From the NCBI RefSeq assembly GCF_947166265.1, contig NZ_CAMVDO010000002.1:186001-250000 (forward strand): a stretch of 64,000 nt of DNA, read 5' to 3'. Every line of letters begins with the position of its first letter. Position 1 is the first letter of the stretch. This document shows, one piece after another, positions 51,714 to 62,350 of the stretch. Position numbers and translations under genes: made by a program. Origin of the DNA: an uncultured Fibrobacter sp. Its GTDB lineage: Bacteria; Fibrobacterota; Fibrobacteria; Fibrobacterales; Fibrobacteraceae. The notes under the pieces were generated by a model. It did no database searches and was not told the DNA's origin. It saw only the letters and a list, made by a program, of their open reading frames with translations.

Positions 51714-53156
51714 TTAGAAGCTGAACACCGTTTCAAGGCCGAAACGCAGAGCGTCATCGTCTTCGTTATCCTGCACGGCGACATCCACCATGCCGAAAGC
51801 CGTGAGTTCCAGGTTTTCGATCGGAATGATGTAGATGCGGCCACCGACATCGAATGTTGCAGCGGCCTTGTTGTCGTCATCCAAGGTGTGCGTGTGATAT
51901 TCTACAGGGATACCAAGCTTGATGAATTCAGCAATCTTGAAAGCCGGTTCGGCATACACGAAGAAGTATTCCGGAATTTCGCCGTTGTCAAGGTCGCTTG
52001 CTTCTTCGGCGGCATCACCCCTGTCGATGAGGGCGTAGAAGGCCGTCGTCTTGATATCGAACATACCCACTTCGAAAGTCGGTTCAGCCAAGAACGTGTG
52101 AGCGATAGAAGTCCAATCCTGGCCTTCCACGACATCGCCGTCGTCACCCAGGTAGTCGGCATGGAAACCATACACAGCCCTAAAGCCAAAGCCACCGAGA
52201 GAGAGGCCCGCTTCGACACCGGCATGGAGTTCGTTATGCTGAACGCTCTGATAGCTCTTGTAGTCCACATACGGACGCAAGTGCTGACCGGCGTAGTCGA
52301 ATTCGTAGGCGGCATGGACATCGTAAACCTTGGCACCTTCATCATCGGCCCAGTCGTTATCGCCGCTGCCAAAGCCGAAGCCAAGGATAAAGCCAGCGAG
52401 GTCGATTTCAAGACCGCGGATGTCGTGTTCCTTCATACCGGCAGCGTTATCGGCAGGATCATCGTAGTCATAGTAGGCGACGAATGCACCTTCCGAGAAG
52501 GTCAGGTCACCCAGCTTGACCGCGAAGAAATCAGCCGGCTGATACTGAATGTAGGCGCCATTGTAAATGGATGCCGGGTCAGTCGTTTCGCCATCGGCTT
52601 CGAGGCCCACGAATGCAGACCACTTTTCGTTGAACTTGACTTCAAAATTCAGGTCGAAGGTAGAAGCGTAGGAATGGTTCAGATCATCGTCTTTCCAGAC
52701 ATTGCCCGTGTAGGCGTCAAATTCAACTTCACCATTATACTTGACTTCCATCTGTGCTTCAGATGTACCTTCGTTCATGCTGGCCTTGAGCATGTCAAGT
52801 GCGTTTCCAGCGGCATCAGCGACTTCGCCCGGATTGGTATTTTCGGCAGGAGCAGATTCAGTCACTTCGGCAGGCTCAGCGACCTTGTCGGTTGGTGAGC
52901 TTGTCGAACCATCGGCAGGAGCGGCAGCGGTCTGAGCAGGAGTTTCCTGCACCGGAGCGGCCTGTTCAACGGGGGATGCAGCAGGGGCTTCCTGGGCAGG
53001 AGCCGGAGCGGCCTGAGTTTCAGCAGGGGCGGCGGCAGGAGCTGCAGCAGCGGGTGCTTCGGCGGCAGGGGCAGCTTCCTGCGCAAATGCAGACACGGCA
53101 AAGAAGGAAGCGGCTGCAAGGCCGAACAAAAGATTAGACGTCAAACGGTTTTTCAT
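51714..53156 (-). CDS. Outer-membrane porin-like beta-barrel protein
   Basis: 480 aa. Signal LLFGLAAASFFAVSAFAQE, then a 90-residue Ala/Pro-rich linker, then a region of alternating strands rich in Tyr/Phe and Asp (FDLNFEVKFNEKWSAFVGLEA, GAYIQYQPADFFAVKLGDLTF, GFGFRAVYGFHADYLGD) ending in the aromatic FGLETVFSF, the usual C-terminal Phe of outer-membrane barrels. The linker includes ADGSTSSPTDKVAEPAEV encoded by a REP-like repeat in frame. GGGAG precedes the ATG at 53156. A TTAG-N6-CTAA iron-box-like site lies 150 bp upstream, so expression may respond to iron. Pore specificity unknown. Confidence 0.8.
   Translation of the reverse strand: MKNRLTSNLLFGLAAASFFAVSAFAQEAAPAAEAPAAAAPAAAPAETQAAPAPAQEAPAASPVEQAAPVQETPAQTAAAPADGSTSSPTDKVAEPAEVTESAPAENTNPGEVADAAGNALDMLKASMNEGTSEAQMEVKYNGEVEFDAYTGNVWKDDDLNHSYASTFDLNFEVKFNEKWSAFVGLEADGETTDPASIYNGAYIQYQPADFFAVKLGDLTFSEGAFVAYYDYDDPADNAAGMKEHDIRGLEIDLAGFILGFGFGSGDNDWADDEGAKVYDVHAAYEFDYAGQHLRPYVDYKSYQSVQHNELHAGVEAGLSLGGFGFRAVYGFHADYLGDDGDVVEGQDWTSIAHTFLAEPTFEVGMFDIKTTAFYALIDRGDAAEEASDLDNGEIPEYFFVYAEPAFKIAEFIKLGIPVEYHTHTLDDDNKAAATFDVGGRIYIIPIENLELTAFGMVDVAVQDNEDDDALRFGLETVFSF
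52864..52912. repeat. REP-like repeat in frame inside the porin linker
   Basis: CTTCGGCAGGCTCAGCGACC followed by GGTTGGTGAGCTTGTCGAAC. Two complementary arms of the dispersed repeat, translated as part of the Ala/Pro linker. Confidence 0.65.
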
Positions 53157-53304
53157 TTTTCTCTCCCTTGACGGATTTATTTTCTGTTTTTGTAACACTC
53201 CGTCAGGTTTTTTACAAATAGTGCTACAAAAACGCTTGGCTATCGCCTTCTGTGTGCTATTGTTGCAAAATGCGTGCCAAGATGTTTCAGTTTAGTTCCA
53301 GAAA

Positions 53305-53318
53305 TTAGACTAATCTAA
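53305..53318. promoter_or_regulatory. DtxR-type iron box near the porin gene
   Basis: TTAGACTAATCTAA, a TTAG-N6-CTAA palindrome identical in form to the five boxes ahead of the dtxR-feo operon. Confidence 0.5.
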
Positions 53319-53389: not shown

Positions 53390-56233
53390 TTAGTCTTCGA
53401 ATCTCTTTTCCTTATTGGCCTTCATGCCGAAGAGCTTGAGGAAGATTCCCGTACCCACAAGAGCCACGATAGCAGCGACGATCCACTTGGTATCGCCTCC
53501 AACGGGCACCTGGTAGAGGAGAACTGCCACAGCCCAGGCAAGAATCGTCTGAACCGTTGCCATCAGGATGGCAAGACCGAGGCCGATTTCGCGGGCAACC
53601 ACACCCATAGCGGCAAGGCACGGCACGTAAAGCAAAATAAAGATGAGGAATGCAAACACCTGCCAGTTAAAGCCATCCACCGGGTTACCGTTCTTGTCCG
53701 GATTGTGGAAGTAGGAGCGGAGGTTGGCGTAGATGTCGGCGGTTTCAGAAAGGTCGCCTTCTTCGAGAGCGCCCATTTCGTCTTCGGAGAGTTCGAGACC
53801 TGCGGCAGCGAGCTTTGCGAACACGGCCTCGCGGGTCTTTTCGTCCTCTTCTTCTTCGCCGAAGGTTTCGATGGCTGCATATTCTTCGCAGGTCAGCACC
53901 TTGGCGTCGGTAATCTTGTCCAGAGTTTCCTTCTTGAGTTCGGCGGCTTCCTGGCCTTCCAATTCGCCGGTGGTTCCGAGCGGGTCGGTGAGCGAACCGA
54001 TAACTTCGGCGAGGTTAGCAGGAATCGAGCCGAGAGCTTCGAGCACAGCGCCCTTGATATCGGGAGCGCCGCCCTCTTCCTCTTCTTCGGCGGGGCATTC
54101 ATCGATGCCTACGATAAGCGGTTTTTCTTCTGCAGCAGGTTCCGCGACGGGTTCTGCGGAGGCGGCAATGGAGGAATCAGCAGCGGCAACAGCAGAATCT
54201 GTGGTAGCGGCAACTTCACTGGATCCTTCGCTAGCTTCGGGGCGTTGCGGGGTGTCCCCGCTAGAAGGGGTAGCGGATGCCGCGTCAGTGGCAGGAGCGA
54301 GGGGAAGGCCTTCCCCTTCCGGTTTCGCAACATCTCTCTCGTCTCTCGTCTGTAGCGAGCTTGCGAGCGTTCTCTCGTCTTCATCCCCCGCCATCGAATA
54401 CAGCGAGTTCATGGTACCGATAACGGCTTCCTTGGCCAACAGGCCCGTGAACAGCGACACAGATGCGGGCCAGTTTTCCTTTTCGACGCCAAAGGGTTCG
54501 AACACCGGCGTAATCGCCTTGCCGATGGTAGAAAGCAGGCTGTTTTCGGAGTCACCGTTACCGGCTGTAAATTCAAAACCTGCCGGTTCATCGGCCGGAG
54601 CATTTTCGTCCGCAGCCTTCTCCACAATGCCGAAGCTGTTGAGGAAGCCAAGTATTGCAACGGCAAGCGTAATCACCTTACCGGCGCGCCAGATGTAGTC
54701 ACGCAGGCGCTGCCAGCAGTGAATCATCAAGGACTTGAACTTGGGCAAGTGATACGGCGGAAGTTCCATCACAAAGTTGCTGGCCTGGCCCTGGAAAAGC
54801 GATTTTTTCAGGAACAAACCGTAAACGATAGCGAACAGCACACCGGCGAGGTAAAGCAGGAACACCACCGTGCCCGCCATCTTGCCGAAGAATGCAGCAG
54901 CAAACAGCGCATACACCGGGAGACGTGCGCCGCAGCTCATGAACGGCACCAGGAAAATGGTGAGGAAACGTTCACGCTTGGATTCCAGCACGCGGGAGCC
55001 CATAATGCCCGGCACGCCGCAACCGAAGCCCACCATCATCGGCACGAAGGCACGACCCGGGAGCCCGAGGAAACGCATGAAGCGGTCAGCAACGAAAGCC
55101 GCGCGGGCCATGTAACCCGAGTCTTCGAGGAACGAAAGGCACAGGAACATGAAGAAGATGACCGGGATGAAGGTCGAAACCGTCTGGATACCGGCACCGA
55201 TACCGTCGGCGAGAATTGCCGCCACAAAGCCCGGCGCATGGAGGACATCCGTAAGCACGTAGCCCAGGCCATCCACGAAAATCGCACCGAACAGCACATC
55301 AAAGAAATCAATAAACGCAGAACCGATGGTAACCGCAATCCAGAACACCAGATACATCACCACAAGGAAGATCGGGAGAGTGGCCCAACGGTTCAAAAGC
55401 ACAGCATCAAGCTTATCCGAGAAAGTCTTCTTGGCACGTGCCGCGACAATCGCCTTGCCCGCCACACTATGCGAAATGGAATAGCGATTTTCGGCCATTG
55501 CAAATTCCGGCTCTTCGCCCAGAATCTTTACGACTTCGGCCTTGTCGAGCTTTACGCCCGCTTCGGCGAATTTGTCTGCATAGCTCTTCTGGTTGCCCAA
55601 GTACATGAGCGAAACCCAACGGGAGTCCGCATCCAAAAGCTTTGCGACCGGTGCGACCTTCGGTTCCAAAACCTTCACGGCCTCTTCAACCTTGTCGCCG
55701 TAAACCATCTGCTTCGGGAGCGGCATCGGGCTCGCAAGCACGTGGCCCATCTGGCTAATAAAGTTAGTGACGCTCTTTTCGCTCACGGCAGAAAGCGGAA
55801 TGCACGGCACGCCGTAGAAATCAGAAAGTTCGTCGAGATCCAGCTGGATTCCGCGATTTTCGGCAATGTCCATCATGTTGACGGCAATCACCATCGGAAT
55901 CTTCATGTCGGCAAGCTGGCTCGTAAGGAACAGGTTGCGTTCCAGGTTCGTCGCATCGACAATGTTGATAATCAGGCTCGCTTCGCGGCTGAGCAAGTAA
56001 TCGACAGCAGCGCGTTCGTCCTCGGCATTTGCGAACAAAGCGTAAGTACCCGGAAGGTCCACCAGGCGAATCTGGCGGTCGCCCAGTTCAAAGTAACCTT
56101 CCTTCTTTTCGACCGTCACGCCGGGCCAGTTACCCACACGCTGGCGTGCACCCGTAAGGGCGTTAAAGAGAGCCGTCTTACCGCAGTTCGGGTTACCGGC
56201 AATTGCAATCGTCAAAAGTTTTCTGGCAGCCAT
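53390..56233 (-). CDS. feoB: Ferrous iron transporter FeoB with a long insert
   Basis: 947 aa; most FeoB proteins have 700-780. G-domain: G1 GNPNCGKT (12-19), G3 DLPGTYAL, G4 NMMD; then the helical regulatory part and the membrane domain with FFMFLCLSFLEDSGYMARAAF, PGRAFVPMMVGFGCGVPGIMGSR and PFMSCGARLPVYALF, the last two with the conserved Cys. An insert of about 200 residues (about 620-820) splits the membrane half: first a repeat-derived, low-complexity part (TRDERDVAKPEGEG, AASATPSSGDTPQRPEASEG), then an acidic helical segment. Imports Fe(II) with GTP use. Start overlaps the feoA stop (TAATG). Confidence 0.95.
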   Translation of the reverse strand: MAARKLLTIAIAGNPNCGKTALFNALTGARQRVGNWPGVTVEKKEGYFELGDRQIRLVDLPGTYALFANAEDERAAVDYLLSREASLIINIVDATNLERNLFLTSQLADMKIPMVIAVNMMDIAENRGIQLDLDELSDFYGVPCIPLSAVSEKSVTNFISQMGHVLASPMPLPKQMVYGDKVEEAVKVLEPKVAPVAKLLDADSRWVSLMYLGNQKSYADKFAEAGVKLDKAEVVKILGEEPEFAMAENRYSISHSVAGKAIVAARAKKTFSDKLDAVLLNRWATLPIFLVVMYLVFWIAVTIGSAFIDFFDVLFGAIFVDGLGYVLTDVLHAPGFVAAILADGIGAGIQTVSTFIPVIFFMFLCLSFLEDSGYMARAAFVADRFMRFLGLPGRAFVPMMVGFGCGVPGIMGSRVLESKRERFLTIFLVPFMSCGARLPVYALFAAAFFGKMAGTVVFLLYLAGVLFAIVYGLFLKKSLFQGQASNFVMELPPYHLPKFKSLMIHCWQRLRDYIWRAGKVITLAVAILGFLNSFGIVEKAADENAPADEPAGFEFTAGNGDSENSLLSTIGKAITPVFEPFGVEKENWPASVSLFTGLLAKEAVIGTMNSLYSMAGDEDERTLASSLQTRDERDVAKPEGEGLPLAPATDAASATPSSGDTPQRPEASEGSSEVAATTDSAVAAADSSIAASAEPVAEPAAEEKPLIVGIDECPAEEEEEGGAPDIKGAVLEALGSIPANLAEVIGSLTDPLGTTGELEGQEAAELKKETLDKITDAKVLTCEEYAAIETFGEEEEDEKTREAVFAKLAAAGLELSEDEMGALEEGDLSETADIYANLRSYFHNPDKNGNPVDGFNWQVFAFLIFILLYVPCLAAMGVVAREIGLGLAILMATVQTILAWAVAVLLYQVPVGGDTKWIVAAIVALVGTGIFLKLFGMKANKEKRFED
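54235..54380. repeat. TCTCGTC-type repeats in frame inside feoB
   Basis: ATCTCTCTCGTCTCTCGTCT and GCGAGCGTTCTCTCGTCTTC lie in the coding sequence and encode part of the hydrophilic insert. Confidence 0.55.
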
Positions 56234-56517
56234 TATACCCTCCTCAACTTGAGAACGTTGGCTTCTTCTTTGCGGAGCGAGAGTCTATAAGAAAGCACCG
56301 CCACCTCGATCGGATCGCCGAGGGGGGCCACCTGCAAGACTTCCATTTGAACGCCACGCACAAGGCCCATCGAAAGCAACTTGGACTTATAAGCAGAATC
56401 GCCCTCGTTATAACCGACGATTTCTACCTTGTCGCCCTTCTTGAGTTCCGAGAACTTGGGCTCGGTACTCCACTTTTTCGTTTGCGACTTTCCGCCGCAA
56501 CCACAATTACAGCTCAT
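56233..56517 (-). CDS. feoA: FeoA
   Basis: 94 aa SH3-fold protein that assists FeoB. Core: FSELKKGDKVEIVGYNEGDSAYKSKLLSMGLVRGVQMEVLQVAPLGDPIEV. The N-terminus MSCNCGCGGKSQ carries four cysteines in a short Gly-rich stretch, which could bind a metal or iron-sulphur cluster. Stop and feoB start overlap. The repressor gene lies 48 bp upstream in the same direction. Confidence 0.93.
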   Translation of the reverse strand: MSCNCGCGGKSQTKKWSTEPKFSELKKGDKVEIVGYNEGDSAYKSKLLSMGLVRGVQMEVLQVAPLGDPIEVAVLSYRLSLRKEEANVLKLRRV

Positions 56518-56565: not shown

Positions 56566-57003
56566 TTACTTTGTGTTTTTGACAACCCTTAGTTTTTTCA
56601 CCGAAGAAACTTTTGCCGAGGCAATCGCATTCGACGGTTTCACAAAATCTTCAATCTTACCGAGCGTTTCTGCCGAAAGAATATGTTCCATACTGCAAGC
56701 ATCCTTGTCGGCAATCGCCTCGGACACGCCCAGCTTAATCAGGAAACCCTTCAGAAGAATATGACGGTTCAAAATCATGGCGGCAACGCGTTCGCCCTCT
56801 TCGGTGAGTTCCACGCCGCTGTAAGGTTCCTGCCTTACAAGGCCCATCTTCTTGAGTTCAACCATGGCCTTTGCGACCGACGGCATTTTCACGGCAAGAG
56901 CCGCCGCAATATCCTTGACGCGGGCAAGCCCGTTCGCCAGGCGCAACATATGCACCATTTCCAGGTAATCTTCTAAGCTTTGAGTCAGTTTTGTATGGTC
57001 CAT
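56566..57003 (-). CDS. DtxR/MntR-family iron-dependent repressor
   Basis: 145 aa. Winged helix (residues 1-60: SLEDYLEMVHMLRLANGLARVKDIAAALAVKMPSVAKAMVELKKMGLV) and dimerisation/metal-binding domain with HILLKGFLIKLGVSEAIADKDACSMEHILS, which has the usual Cys/Glu/His ligand positions. It lacks a C-terminal SH3 domain, though FeoA next door has that fold. It would repress feoAB when Fe(II) is abundant. Two TTAG-N6-CTAA boxes overlap its own promoter, so it is autoregulated. Confidence 0.88.
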   Translation of the reverse strand: MDHTKLTQSLEDYLEMVHMLRLANGLARVKDIAAALAVKMPSVAKAMVELKKMGLVRQEPYSGVELTEEGERVAAMILNRHILLKGFLIKLGVSEAIADKDACSMEHILSAETLGKIEDFVKPSNAIASAKVSSVKKLRVVKNTK

Positions 57004-57018
57004 TTCAACCAGCCTTAT

Positions 57019-57192
57019 TTAGACGCGGCTAATATAGTTTAATAAATCTAATTAGGCAAGGCTAAAAATATTACCGATTTCGTATTTATTTAGATTAGAC
57101 TAATTTTATAAGAAAAAATTTACATTATTTTTTGCCATTTTACCCTTGTTTTTACAGTTAGTTTTATCTAACTTTTGATTAGACAAGTCTAA
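57019..57192. promoter_or_regulatory. Five iron boxes (TTAG-N6-CTAA) over two divergent promoters
   Basis: Boxes: TTAGACGCGGCTAA (57019-57032), TTAGGCAAGGCTAA (57052-57065), TTAGATTAGACTAA (57090-57103), TTAGTTTTATCTAA (57158-57171), TTAGACAAGTCTAA (57179-57192). Minus-strand promoter TTGCCT-N17-TATATT (57031-57059) drives dtxR-feoAB, with box 2 on its -35 and box 1 at the start point. A plus-strand promoter TTTACA-N17-TTTGAT (57151-57179) is straddled by boxes 4 and 5. DtxR-family operators are of the form TTAGG...CCTAA. Confidence 0.72.
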
Positions 57193-57320
57193 CTCTGGTT
57201 GTTGCCATAGCATTCAGACTCAAGCTTGTTTGGTTGAATCAAAAAAATCAATTCCCTCTTTTGTGTCTCTTTGGGAATAAAGGTGCCCCCGCTCAAGTAG
57301 CTCTGAGCAGGGGCATTTTT
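57188..57320 (+). ncRNA. Candidate iron-regulated small RNA
   Basis: No gene lies in this stretch, but a plus-strand promoter with two iron boxes starts here. The region ends in a strong terminator (TGCCCCCGCTCA, loop, TGAGCAGGGGCA, TTTTT; 57284-57320) with the T-run on the plus strand. A second hairpin ATTCCC...GGGAAT lies at 57251-57278. About 130 nt. An iron-repressed RNA of this kind would resemble RyhB in logic. The alternative is that the hairpin simply ends the P-type ATPase transcript from the other side. Confidence 0.35.
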
Positions 57321-57373
57321 ACAATAATTTAAGCGATTTCAGGCAATTTTAGCCGTTTTTTTACGACGCGGGC

Positions 57374-59455
57374 CTACACCCGCTTCAGCGGCGTCATGCT
57401 CTTGGCGCAAATCGCCATGGTCGAGAGGTTGTGCAGCAGGGCCGAAGTCGAGGGGGCTAGTATTCCGAAGAAACCTGCGGCCAGGAGCGACGTGTTGAAG
57501 GCGACGATAAAACGGTAATTTGCCTGGATGCGCTCCATGAGCTGAGTACTCAGCGTACGGAGTTCGGCGAGGTCGCGCAGGTCTTCGCTGCGGAGGGTCA
57601 CGTCGGCGGTTTCGCGGGCAATGTCGCTGGCATCGCTCATGGCAACCGACACGTTCGCGGCGGCCAATGCAGGCGCATCGTTGATTCCATCGCCCACCAT
57701 AATCACGCGGCGGCCTTCGGCCTTCATCTTTTCCACATAGCGGTGCTTGTCTTCGGGCAGCACCTGCGCAAAGAAGGTGTCGATGCCCAAAAGTTGCGCC
57801 GTGCGTTCAGCGGCCTTTTGGCTGTCGCCGGTAATCATCGCCACATGCTTGATTCCGCGTTCGCGCAGCATGCGAATGGCTTCGGCAGCTTCGTCACGCG
57901 GAGGATCGCTAATGCAAAGCACGCCCGCAAGGTTCCCGCCAATGGCAAGGTAAATCACGGATGCGGCTCCGGCGAGTTCGTCGATCTTTTTCTGTTCCGC
58001 CTCGCCCACTGCAATTTTTTCGTCTTCAACGACGAAATGCTTGCTGCCGATAACGGCGCGTTCACCGTCGAGAGTCGTCGCGATTCCATGCGCCACAATG
58101 TACTTGACATCGGCGTGTTCTTCTTCGTGGTCGATTCCCCGTTCGGCGGCCCCGCGCACAATGGCGCGCGCCATGCTATGCGGGAAATGTTCCTCGATGC
58201 AGGCGGCAGTGCGAAGCACCTCTTCTTCGCTGCGGCCACCGAACGGAATAACGCGTTCAAGTTTCGGTTCCGCCTTGGTGAGCGTCCCCGTCTTATCGAA
58301 AACAATAGTATCTGCGAGAGCAAATTCTTCGAGATACTTGCCGCCCTTTACGGTCATGTTGCGGTCAGCCGCTTCGCGCAGCGCCGAAATCACCGAGATC
58401 GGAGTGGAAAGCTTGATGGCGCAAGAATAGTCCACCATCAGAATCGAAACCGCCTTGGTAATATTGCGCGTAAACAAGAGTGTAAGACCGAAACCGAGGA
58501 AACTGAACGGCACAATACCATCAGCCAAGCGCTCGGCACGACTCTGGATAGAAGCCTTTAGATCTTCGGAGCGGTCAATGAGTTCAATGATTTTCTGAAT
58601 CTTGGTGTTACCGCTCACGGCCCGCACCGACACGACAATCGAGCCTTCGTCCACGATGGTGCCTGCAAAAACGGACTTTCCGACCGTCTTATGAACCGCC
58701 TGCGATTCGCCCGTCATGGTCGCTTCGTTCACAAAGGCATCGCCTTCGGCAACGGTTCCATCCACCGGAATCATGCTACCAGAACGTACACGCACGAGGT
58801 CGCCCACCTGAACATCCTGCATACGCACCTGGACATCGACACCGTCCTTGACAACCCACACGCGGTCTACCTTCACGGCTAGGCTTGCCGTAAGGGCCGT
58901 GCGGGTACGCGCCTTGGTGTAATCTTCCAAGAGGCTACTCACGTTCAGCAGGAACATGATGGTTCCCGCAGATTCGTAATTGCGCTGCAAGATGCTAGCC
59001 CCGATGGCAGCACCGTCCAACACCTCGACAGAAAGCTTTCCTTCGCCAAGGCAGTTCAAGCCTTTCGCCACGAACTTGAGGCCCCTGTAAATCAGGTGCA
59101 CCGTGCGGATAGGAGCTGGAATAAACAACTTGGCAAGGTAACGCCGCGCAATCATAAACGCGAGCTTATTCTTGAAATCAGAATCAAGAGCCTGTAGCTG
59201 GTACTCGGTATCGGGTTCGCTTTCAGGGAGACTCGCGACGTTTAGATTTCGAACGAAATCAATCACCTGTTCACGACAGCCGTTTTCGTATTCCAGCAGA
59301 ATGCCGCCGTTTTCCGAATGGACTACCGCTTTCTGGACATAAGGTTCACTCACGCATGCCTTGTGGATGCGCGGTTCATGCACTTTCTCAAATGCGTAGG
59401 CCCCCGCCCGAAAGCGGATACGCCCCGGCTGATCGTAAACGATTCTAGACTTCAT
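57374..59455 (-). CDS. P1B-type metal-transporting ATPase
   Basis: 693 aa. Order of parts: N-terminal HMA-like domain without CxxC (about 1-75), A-domain TMTGESQAVHK, the ion-binding helix SILMVDYSCAIKLSTP, phosphorylation site VFDKTGTLT near 390, HP motif in EEHFPHSMARAI, GDGINDAPALAAANV and a final ANYRFIVAFNTS. In copper, zinc and iron pumps the helix carries CPC, SPC or TPC; here it is SCA-K, and the metal cannot be assigned. Neighbours (feoAB, TonB receptor, DUF6110-like protein) make iron or manganese export a fair guess. Weak ribosome-binding site; a short repeat (GGTTAGTGATTAGTGG type) lies upstream. Confidence 0.9.
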   Translation of the reverse strand: MKSRIVYDQPGRIRFRAGAYAFEKVHEPRIHKACVSEPYVQKAVVHSENGGILLEYENGCREQVIDFVRNLNVASLPESEPDTEYQLQALDSDFKNKLAFMIARRYLAKLFIPAPIRTVHLIYRGLKFVAKGLNCLGEGKLSVEVLDGAAIGASILQRNYESAGTIMFLLNVSSLLEDYTKARTRTALTASLAVKVDRVWVVKDGVDVQVRMQDVQVGDLVRVRSGSMIPVDGTVAEGDAFVNEATMTGESQAVHKTVGKSVFAGTIVDEGSIVVSVRAVSGNTKIQKIIELIDRSEDLKASIQSRAERLADGIVPFSFLGFGLTLLFTRNITKAVSILMVDYSCAIKLSTPISVISALREAADRNMTVKGGKYLEEFALADTIVFDKTGTLTKAEPKLERVIPFGGRSEEEVLRTAACIEEHFPHSMARAIVRGAAERGIDHEEEHADVKYIVAHGIATTLDGERAVIGSKHFVVEDEKIAVGEAEQKKIDELAGAASVIYLAIGGNLAGVLCISDPPRDEAAEAIRMLRERGIKHVAMITGDSQKAAERTAQLLGIDTFFAQVLPEDKHRYVEKMKAEGRRVIMVGDGINDAPALAAANVSVAMSDASDIARETADVTLRSEDLRDLAELRTLSTQLMERIQANYRFIVAFNTSLLAAGFFGILAPSTSALLHNLSTMAICAKSMTPLKRV

Positions 59456-59546: not shown

Positions 59547-59768
59547 TTACTTACCTGCTTCTTTCTTCGCGTCGTTGCAGATGTCGGCAGCTTCGTCCTT
59601 CATATCCTGGAAGGCAGCCTTGGCGTCGGCAGTGAACTTCATGCCCTGAGCGAGTCCCTTGACGGCACATTCGCGAGTCTTCGGAGCCTTGAGGATCTTC
59701 TTTGCAATAGCGGAGCCAACAGCACCCGCCACGACCAACCAGAACTTTTCATTTTTCCATACGGACAT
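59547..59768 (-). CDS. Small DUF6110-like protein
   Basis: 73 aa. An N-terminal hydrophobic segment (WLVVAGAVGSAIAKKIL) is followed by an amphipathic helix ending DMKDEAADICNDAKKEAGK. It resembles DUF6110, a small family often found next to heavy-metal P-type ATPases, and indeed lies just upstream of one. AAAGGAG precedes the ATG. May be an accessory subunit. Confidence 0.7.
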   Translation of the reverse strand: MSVWKNEKFWLVVAGAVGSAIAKKILKAPKTRECAVKGLAQGMKFTADAKAAFQDMKDEAADICNDAKKEAGK

Positions 59769-59813
59769 AGTTTACTCCTTTTGTTTCGCCCTAATGTCAT
59801 CCACACTACAATC

Positions 59814-59839
59814 GGCCCTTCGGCAAGTTCAGGGACCTT
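59814..59839. repeat. REP-like repeat copy
   Basis: GGCCCTTCGGCAAGTTCAGG plus GACCTT. The rest of 59769-60061 holds TTAGTT motifs and nothing else recognised. Confidence 0.55.
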
Positions 59840-60061
59840 AGTAAAGAATCCATTAGAACATTGTTGTTATTTGCTTAAATAATCTACCTAAAAATACATC
59901 AAAAAGCAACTTACAAACAAATTAACAAACAGACTTCAAGCCTAGGTCCCATAAGCTTTCCGAGCGACTAACATTGTTGCAAAAAATCAATTTAGTTCAG
60001 GCTATGCAACTTAGTTTCCGGTCAGACAACTTAGTTAGCGTAAACTATCCAAAGTTAGATT

Positions 60062-62320
60062 CTATCTAAAACTGTACCTAATCTTTGTCGCGAAAGTGCG
60101 TCCCGGTTTAGATTCACCATATTTATCGTAAACGGTTTCGTCCATAAAGTTATCGACTTCAAAGTTCCAGGCGAGTTTATTATCCCACACGGAATATTCG
60201 ACGCCTAAATCCTGCGTGAACGAAGCTTCAATTTTTCTGCTCTGGCGGGAGCTGACTTTCCAACCGTAATAGTATTCATCCGTGTAATTTGCGGCCCACC
60301 AGAACTTGACAAAATCGTTCTTGTTGAGTATATCGCCCATGTGGAATTCCGCCATATAATTCATAAAGAATCGGGGAATATTCGGGATAATCGCATCTTC
60401 GGAAATTCCCTGCTTGGCATTATAATCTATATTGCGCAAATCCTGGAAAGTCCAGTTCGTTCCGAGCAACACCCATTCATTCACATCAAGTTTCACGTCA
60501 CCTTCGTAGCCCCAGCCGCGAATCGGATCCATATTAAAGTACGGCACCGACATCTGCGAAGTACCCATATAATGAATGCGATTCTTGTAATAGGAATAAA
60601 AAACGTCTCCGTCAAATCGGAATCTTGCCACCAGCGGAATTTCTTGCAAATCAAGAGACAGGCCCACGTTAAAATTGTCCGCTTCTTCGGGCTTGAGGCT
60701 TGTCGCGGCACTCACGCGCACGCCATCGCCAAAAAGTTCATCCGGGGTGGGCAAGCGCACCGCATGCTGGTAGGAACCCTTGATCGCAAGCGGCTTTACA
60801 ATCCTAAACATCAAGCTTTCATCGTAGCTGAAATCCTTATAATCATTCGATTCTACAGAGGCCTGTTGTAACAGACTCGTGGACGTATTAGAAATTTCAG
60901 CATTCAAATAGTGGAACTTGACGCCTATCAAGTTCTGCAGCCTAGAATCAAAGAAATTATCTTCAAGCGAAAGGCCTGTCGTCACAGAAGCCGTCTTTCC
61001 CGGGAAACCCGCTGTATTGAAGCCCACCATTTCGGAACCCACATCATCTTCGGGATCTTCCTTATGGTACCGGAAAAGCGTATTCCAGTAAATAAACTGA
61101 TTCTTGAAGAACTGATAATCCAGATTCAGCAAATTGTTAAAGTCATACGCCAGCACCGTCCTCAGTTTCGGAAGTCCCATCGAAGATAGCTCCCCCACGT
61201 TCTTCTTGGCAGTATCGCAGCTAAACCAGTTGCGGCAATGGACGCGGCTAGTATCAATCACCTTATTTTCGCTATACCCAAACGAAAAATGGTTCCCAAA
61301 ATTCAGATCCTTCACAAAAATATTTTTCTTGTCTAATCCAAATGTCGCACCGATATTGTGTCCCTCGGATTTCGCATCGGCAATGCGGCTTGCGTCGCCC
61401 TGTATTTCCTTGTCAAATGCACCATAACTTGCGCCCAGTGAAACCTGATCAAACCATACATTCATCAAGTTCGCAAAAGCCTGCACATTGTAAGAGGTGT
61501 AATGGTCATGATCGCGAACGACGCTCGTGTCCTTACCCGAAGCCCCCTTCATGTAAGGCGAAGTAAATTTATAATCGTTGTCGGAATGGTTAAAATACCC
61601 CGATACGCCCACCTCGAGATCTGCACCGCCAACAATGCTATCAATCAAGTGACTTGCAGAAACAGAAGCCTTGTGCGTATTGAAACTCGAAAGGCTGTAG
61701 GACGCATCTACCGAATTGACCGAACGTTTCTTGGTAATGATATTGATGGCACCACCCGCACCATCCGTCGCGAAACGCGCCGGAACATAGCCCTTGTAGA
61801 CTTCGATATCGGCAATCTGGTCGATGGGAATGTCGTCTAGACCCAAGTTACCCTGAGTCTCGACAGGAACACCGTTCACCAGCACCTTGATATTCTTGCC
61901 TTCCATGCCGCGAATATTGATTTTGCCTTCGCTGCCCATACCGCCCGACTTACGCACTTTCACGCCCGAGGCCGAATTTATTGCCTTCGAAACAGTCTTG
62001 CTGGTATTCTGCATTTCAGCGGCATCAATCGTCGCAACCGATTCCGCCTTTTTGGCCTGTTTCGCCTGTTCCGCCTCTATTTCAGATTCCACCGAGAGTT
62101 CATCCAACTGCGTAACCCCCGACGCACTTGGAGCAGAAGCATCCGATTGAACGGCCATACCATTCGCGTCATCATTTGTCGCAGTATTTTCTGGAGACGT
62201 TTCTTCCAGAAAATCATCTATCGAGGTAATTTCATCTTCTTGGGCGTGGGCAGAAACAGCACCAACCGTAGCAAAAATAAAGGCAAGAGTCGCTGCCTTG
62301 TAAAAAAGCATCTTTTTCAT
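60062..62320 (-). CDS. TonB-dependent outer-membrane receptor
   Basis: 752 aa from the ATG at 62320. Signal LAFIFATVGAVSAHAQE; the plug domain (about 95-210) has the run KVRKSGGMGSEGKINIRGMEGKNIKVLVNGVPVETQ and IADIEVYKGYVPARFATDGAGGAINIITKK. The beta-barrel follows and ends GRTFATKIRYSFR with the C-terminal aromatic. Takes up siderophores, haem or similar with energy from TonB. A 45-residue low-complexity stretch precedes the plug. It shares a promoter motif with the lipoprotein gene behind it, and a weak iron-box-like sequence lies upstream; iron substrate is therefore likely. Confidence 0.92.
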   Translation of the reverse strand: MKKMLFYKAATLAFIFATVGAVSAHAQEDEITSIDDFLEETSPENTATNDDANGMAVQSDASAPSASGVTQLDELSVESEIEAEQAKQAKKAESVATIDAAEMQNTSKTVSKAINSASGVKVRKSGGMGSEGKINIRGMEGKNIKVLVNGVPVETQGNLGLDDIPIDQIADIEVYKGYVPARFATDGAGGAINIITKKRSVNSVDASYSLSSFNTHKASVSASHLIDSIVGGADLEVGVSGYFNHSDNDYKFTSPYMKGASGKDTSVVRDHDHYTSYNVQAFANLMNVWFDQVSLGASYGAFDKEIQGDASRIADAKSEGHNIGATFGLDKKNIFVKDLNFGNHFSFGYSENKVIDTSRVHCRNWFSCDTAKKNVGELSSMGLPKLRTVLAYDFNNLLNLDYQFFKNQFIYWNTLFRYHKEDPEDDVGSEMVGFNTAGFPGKTASVTTGLSLEDNFFDSRLQNLIGVKFHYLNAEISNTSTSLLQQASVESNDYKDFSYDESLMFRIVKPLAIKGSYQHAVRLPTPDELFGDGVRVSAATSLKPEEADNFNVGLSLDLQEIPLVARFRFDGDVFYSYYKNRIHYMGTSQMSVPYFNMDPIRGWGYEGDVKLDVNEWVLLGTNWTFQDLRNIDYNAKQGISEDAIIPNIPRFFMNYMAEFHMGDILNKNDFVKFWWAANYTDEYYYGWKVSSRQSRKIEASFTQDLGVEYSVWDNKLAWNFEVDNFMDETVYDKYGESKPGRTFATKIRYSFR

Positions 62321-62350
62321 CGCAGCGCAATTGAGCAAATTTTAGCACAA

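Follow-up and report, generated by a model that had tools for sequence, protein, structure and literature searches.

The window analysed here is a stretch of 64,000 nucleotides from a Fibrobacter genome (G000), whose RNA-bearing relatives are labelled Fibrobacter succinogenes or Fibrobacter sp. Near one end of the window, a minus-strand operon consisting of dtxR (for a metal-dependent repressor of the DtxR/MntR family that lacks an SH3 domain), feoA and feoB is separated by an intergenic stretch from a gene for a heavy-metal P-type ATPase on the other side of the locus (Table 1). An initial annotation, made from the sequence alone, had placed five iron boxes and two divergent promoters in this interval and had proposed that a gene-free stretch ending in a strong terminator might encode an iron-regulated small RNA. 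All five boxes are exact matches to TTAG-N6-CTAA and lie where they had been placed, within 57019-57192, and the minus-strand promoter TTGCCT-N17-TATATT of dtxR-feoAB is present as described.

Table 1. Features of the dtxR-feoAB and putative small RNA locus (window coordinates)
Feature	Position	Strand	Basis
feoB	53390..56233	-	
feoA	56233..56517	-	
dtxR, DtxR/MntR-family repressor	56566..57003	-	Pfam/NCBIfam identities
Box 1, adjoins -10 of dtxR promoter	57019..57032	-	box count, conservation profile
dtxR-feoAB promoter	57031..57059	-	
Box 2, across -35 of dtxR promoter	57052..57065	-	box count, conservation profile
Box 3, between both promoters	57090..57103	.	box count, conservation profile
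Probable small RNA promoter, TTGTTT-N17-TAACTT	57146..57174 (57146-57151 / 57169-57174)	+	conservation profile
Box 4, TTAGTTTTATCTAA, across spacer and -10 of small RNA promoter	57158..57171	+	kept even in relocated copy L058
Box 5, TTAGACAAGTCTAA, across predicted +1; same bases form 5′ arm of stem 1	57179..57192	+	
Putative small RNA gene, about 140 nt	57181..57320	+	5′ end predicted from -10, 3′ end from T tract
Stem-loop 1	57183..57232	+	two-sided changes at seven pairs of helices 1 and 2
Conserved single-stranded linker, GGTTGAA...	57234..57250	+	conservation
Stem-loop 2, TTCCC...GGGAA, invariant loop TTGTGTCTCTTT as proposed seed	57252..57277	+	
Rho-independent terminator, hairpin (57284-57315) and T tract	57284..57320	+	covariation, conservation
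Heavy-metal P-type ATPase	57374-59455	-	

The boxes are of the DtxR type and cluster non-randomly at metal genes. The window contains six copies of TTAGN6CTAA where dinucleotide shuffles, none of which reached six, predict 0.54, and the whole window genome contains only 21. Two boxes precede a second dtxR-feoA-feoB operon (L086; G000:C10:64500-69700), beside which no copy of the RNA was found, and another is located directly behind a TTGACA-N18-TATATT promoter that serves a DUF3793-flavodoxin operon (L085, 1940-3120; G000:C2, about 10 kb beyond the small RNA gene). Because flavodoxin replaces ferredoxin under iron shortage and its operon carries the same box, the boxes look like iron boxes, and the operon is likely to encode an iron-starvation flavodoxin. 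A nuoB-like (complex I) gene also has a box about 100 nt upstream (L084, about 1400-1540; G000:C1:173741).

With regard to the regulator, its best family and structure matches are to MntR, below the NCBIfam cut-off, and it resembles MntR more than DtxR; the metal sensed could be manganese instead of iron. An RNA controlled by a manganese sensor of the MntR type would answer manganese shortage in the manner of RsaC from Staphylococcus aureus, but this is an improbable reading given that the regulator is encoded in an operon with feoAB, that its box is shared with the second dtxR-feoAB operon and with the flavodoxin operon, and that a cysteine occupies the position of MntR Glu99, which corresponds to Cys102 of the iron-sensing DtxR.

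The evidence for an RNA gene comes from comparison among relatives. The starting set consisted of 14 dtxR loci, in all of which a conserved element follows boxes 4 and 5, and a covariance model applied to 121 genomes recovered 29 copies in 28 Fibrobacter genomes and none in other genera. Pairwise identity averages 0.65 in the spacer that precedes the promoter and rises to 0.97 at the -35 and 0.93 at box 4 and the -10; stem-loop 2 has 0.92, the terminator 0.94 and the T tract 1.00, with a fall to 0.21 just after, such that a near-invariant promoter and core with covarying helices and a terminator are bordered by an unconserved flank in the 28 genomes. The plus-strand promoter of the initial annotation, TTTACA (57151)-N17-TTTGAT (57174), exists as a pair of strings, but these are unconserved and probably the wrong hexamers; the likelier promoter is TTGTTT-N17-TAACTT, which lies five bases upstream and hardly varies among relatives. 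With this promoter, box 4 overlaps the spacer and the -10 and box 5 covers the predicted +1, and both operator-type boxes are conserved together with the gene. Judged from this arrangement, the RNA is very probably under the control of a DtxR-family protein, and iron would be the presumptive signal.

The predicted RNA folds into three hairpins, the middle of which holds the invariant UUGUGUCUCUUUGGG; the linker and the terminator loop are also invariant. Two-sided compensatory changes are seen at 13 of 38 pairs in 28 aligned copies versus 5.3 in shuffles, in an alignment that was fitted to the structure model and therefore favours structure somewhat. Sliding of the pairing partners destroys the pairing in the same alignment, and the fold z-score is -4.2. 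The strong terminator of the initial annotation is borne out by a real hairpin that is followed on the plus strand by an invariant TTTTT and on the minus strand by only CCTTTATT, in a tail region that is variable, unlike the plus-strand T tract. In four loci (L050, L051, L054 and L060) box 5 is degenerate as an operator, and both arms of stem 1 have changed together so that the bases still pair. Loss of the box with retention of the stem indicates that operator and RNA stem can come apart. One copy (L049) has a 20-nt tandem duplication (CCGGGCTTGTCTGGTTGAAG) within the stem 1/linker part. A coding function for the conserved stretch, as the mRNA of a small protein, could be sought in a 32-codon frame with a TTG start at 57234-57332, but this frame crosses the terminator and, in the most conserved part, is disrupted by indels of one or two bases among relatives, which excludes the protein reading for practical purposes.

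For INDEPENDENCE from neighbours, dtxR lies divergently upstream in 26 of the 29 loci, has been lost with feoA kept in two, and is absent together with feoA in one (L058, G090:C138), where the RNA gene stands alone at an unrelated site to which it may have moved or been transferred. This relocated copy retains the promoter, boxes 4 and 5 and the loop, and its terminator has a different sequence with the same kind of pairing. The initial annotation had named as an alternative that ATPase transcripts end at the hairpin. By this account there would be no small RNA and the extra boxes would merely strengthen repression of dtxR; in its favour, the window's ATPase gene ends at 57374, which on the minus strand is a short way upstream of the hairpin. 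The ATPase is adjacent in only 12 of the 29 loci, however, and the element is kept in the 17 others; together with the relocated copy and the strand bias of the T tract, this leaves the ATPase-terminator account very little probability. Persistence of the element without the ATPase, without dtxR and at a new site indicates an independent RNA gene that is neither a leader nor an ATPase terminator. Conservation, covariation, independence from neighbours and a box-overlapped promoter thus support the initial proposal, and the interval from about 57181 to 57320 on the plus strand is almost certainly a small RNA gene.

The gene appears to be confined to Fibrobacter. A pattern scan of GTDB contigs found only Fibrobacter copies apart from two apparent chance matches and one contig that is probably misbinned: the matches in Enterococcus and Coprenecus are flanked by sequence that does not resemble the RNA, and the contig, assigned to Clostridia (RGIG6213; L078, JAFWZN010000087.1), holds an almost identical Fibrobacter copy, promoter included, probably through a binning error. 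A weak covariance-model match in one genome (G073) was rejected on its flanks, which are unlike the RNA. In genomes lacking the RNA, a wider model (R2) detected no diverged homologue, and matches to the bare loop there fell for the most part on the antisense strand of gene starts, among them those of sdhC and sodB. No Rfam family matches at gathering level, with only SNORA32 (E 0.99) and RsaE (E 3.1) in a permissive scan, and a literature search of an open library found no reports of Fibrobacter small RNAs; the gene seems to be previously unlisted.

Candidate targets, which like the loop do not figure in the initial annotation, were sought as occurrences of AARGAGACAC, the complement of the invariant loop, in nine RNA-bearing genomes, with every place examined and gene identities assigned by Pfam and NCBIfam; one assembly (G001), which is probably mixed in that several of its genes resemble another species, was left out of the counts. 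Eight of the nine genomes have the loop complement at the start of sdhC/frdC, the cytochrome b gene; in the ninth, that of the window, the sdhC start is unassembled at a contig end. The complement also lies at the starts of nifH (5/9), the gene for an Fe-superoxide dismutase, sodB (4/9), a class I fumarase gene (1/9) and a rubrerythrin gene (1/9). The sodB and fumA sites are patchy among species, and in the window genome only the nifH site was seen, sodB and fumA being without one. Iron enzymes account for about 18 of the 28 start-site matches in the nine genomes, a share that greatly exceeds the few per cent generally to be expected. In a wider check, GAGACA was found in the fumA leader of six of 18 genomes with the RNA and in none of 10 without it.

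For each of three loop variants tested, the predicted duplex between the RNA and sdhC has an energy of -23.3 kcal/mol over 15 contiguous pairs, and it uses exactly the invariant loop bases. Compared with 298 start regions from a 400-kb sample of one relative (G003), none of which contains GAGACAC, the sdhC, nifH and sodB sites rank within the best 0.3-0.7%. No shuffled loop among 300 matched the pairing with the targets, a comparison that is circular because the targets were picked by complementarity; for the same reason the energy of pairing does not count as independent support. What escapes this circularity is which genes carry the sites and that the pairing draws on precisely the invariant bases.

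These facts also bear on whether the complementarity to iron-enzyme leaders could be incidental in an RNA that is real and metal-regulated, whose loop would then serve as a general anti-Shine-Dalgarno seed aimed mainly at other targets, or would bind a protein. Such a function would accommodate the sites at non-iron genes (phosphoglycerate mutase and secreted proteins are among the remaining matches), the invariance of the linker and terminator loop, and the occurrence of AAGGAGACA at sdhC and nifH in genomes without the RNA: the sdhC motif is present in six Fibrobacter genomes lacking a detectable copy and the full nifH motif in one. Incidental pairing is nonetheless unlikely, although it is the least easily set aside of the alternatives, when the preponderance of iron enzymes, the fit of the sdhC duplex to the invariant bases and the distribution of fumA sites are considered. 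The motif may be older than the RNA, in which case the RNA would have adapted to it. The target set touches on the manganese reading as well, in that the phosphoglycerate mutase candidate (iPGM) belongs to a metalloenzyme superfamily, but most candidates are iron enzymes. A DtxR-repressed, iron-sparing RNA that acts like RyhB is the probable interpretation of the sequence comparisons.

From the computed boxes, conserved promoter, covarying structure, terminator, neighbour independence and long leader duplexes we infer a circuit of transcription, metal-dependent repression and translational block. In iron-replete cells, the DtxR-family protein with its metal bound would occupy boxes 4 and 5, which cover the -10 and the transcription start of the RNA, as well as boxes 1 and 2 across its own promoter, shutting off both the RNA and dtxR-feoAB. 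Under iron shortage, the two promoters would be released, iron uptake would increase, and the RNA would present the invariant loop of its middle hairpin to the Shine-Dalgarno regions of mRNAs for iron-rich enzymes (sdhC/frdC, nifH, Fe-sodB, fumarase and rubrerythrin, depending on the species). Ribosome binding to the paired mRNAs would be blocked, resulting in an iron-sparing response without detectable Hfq. Searches for Hfq (PF17209) found none in 41 genomes including the window's, with positive controls in five reference genomes, and a 15-pair duplex may be able to do without it. Should this circuit operate, the succinate dehydrogenase/fumarate reductase and nitrogenase would be placed under one iron-starvation RNA, a major fibre digester of the rumen would have succinate production and nitrogen fixation, both of them costly, governed by iron, and operator bases would double as an RNA stem.

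Succinate dehydrogenase and fumarase are RyhB targets in enterobacteria, overlapping with the candidates described here. The RyhB family of enterobacteria (RF00057) also resembles the Fibrobacter RNA in its iron-sparing logic, in its divergent arms of iron uptake and sparing, and in a target class that includes Fe-superoxide dismutase (PMC9294342). RyhB is, however, Fur-controlled and Hfq-dependent, whereas the Fibrobacter RNA has a DtxR-family box and no Hfq was found; with no Hfq and no Rfam match, the RNA falls outside the RyhB family. The nearest analogue in logic appears to be MrsI of Mycobacterium tuberculosis, an iron-sparing RNA with a promoter site for the DtxR-family regulator IdeR in a bacterium that lacks Hfq (PMC8628891, PMC9410917). 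MrsI differs in its named targets (hypF, bfrA and fprA) and in its location (blaI-rv1847), its sequence being compared via Rfam only. FsrA of Bacillus subtilis and IsrR of staphylococci likewise direct a pyrimidine-rich unpaired seed against the Shine-Dalgarno sequences of iron-enzyme mRNAs, and IsrR is Hfq-independent (PMC9410917), but both are Fur-controlled with C-rich motifs, FsrA uses FbpABC, and neither shares synteny or an Rfam match with the Fibrobacter RNA. RsaC is tied to MntR, a DtxR-family protein, and to control of superoxide dismutase (PMC9294342); it differs in being manganese-responsive, and its sequence was compared via Rfam only. RyhB, PrrF, FsrA, IsrR and MrsI are mutually unrelated RNAs that have converged on the same targets (PMC9410917), and the Fibrobacter RNA is proposed to act like them. 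Despite the IdeR site of MrsI (PMC8628891), one review names no small RNA for an iron-sensing DtxR (PMC9294342). On balance, we lean towards a RyhB-like iron-sparing system of independent origin in Fibrobacter, in which a DtxR-family repressor would stand in for Fur, Hfq would be dispensed with, and the loop would have been fitted to a Shine-Dalgarno motif already common to the iron enzymes of the genus; a case of this kind in the Fibrobacterota without detectable Hfq would widen the known convergence of iron-sparing RNAs.

Two other parts of the window contain features that may be related to metals. The sixth box, TTAGACTAATCTAA at 53305-53318, lies behind the end of feoB and before the gene for a 494-aa protein (51714-53198, minus strand) that has a signal-like N-terminus and no Pfam match; this gene may be iron-regulated too. 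Beyond the ATPase, the segment at 59547-62338 encodes a small, weakly DUF1490-like protein and a TonB-dependent receptor, which perhaps mark a metal-handling cluster.
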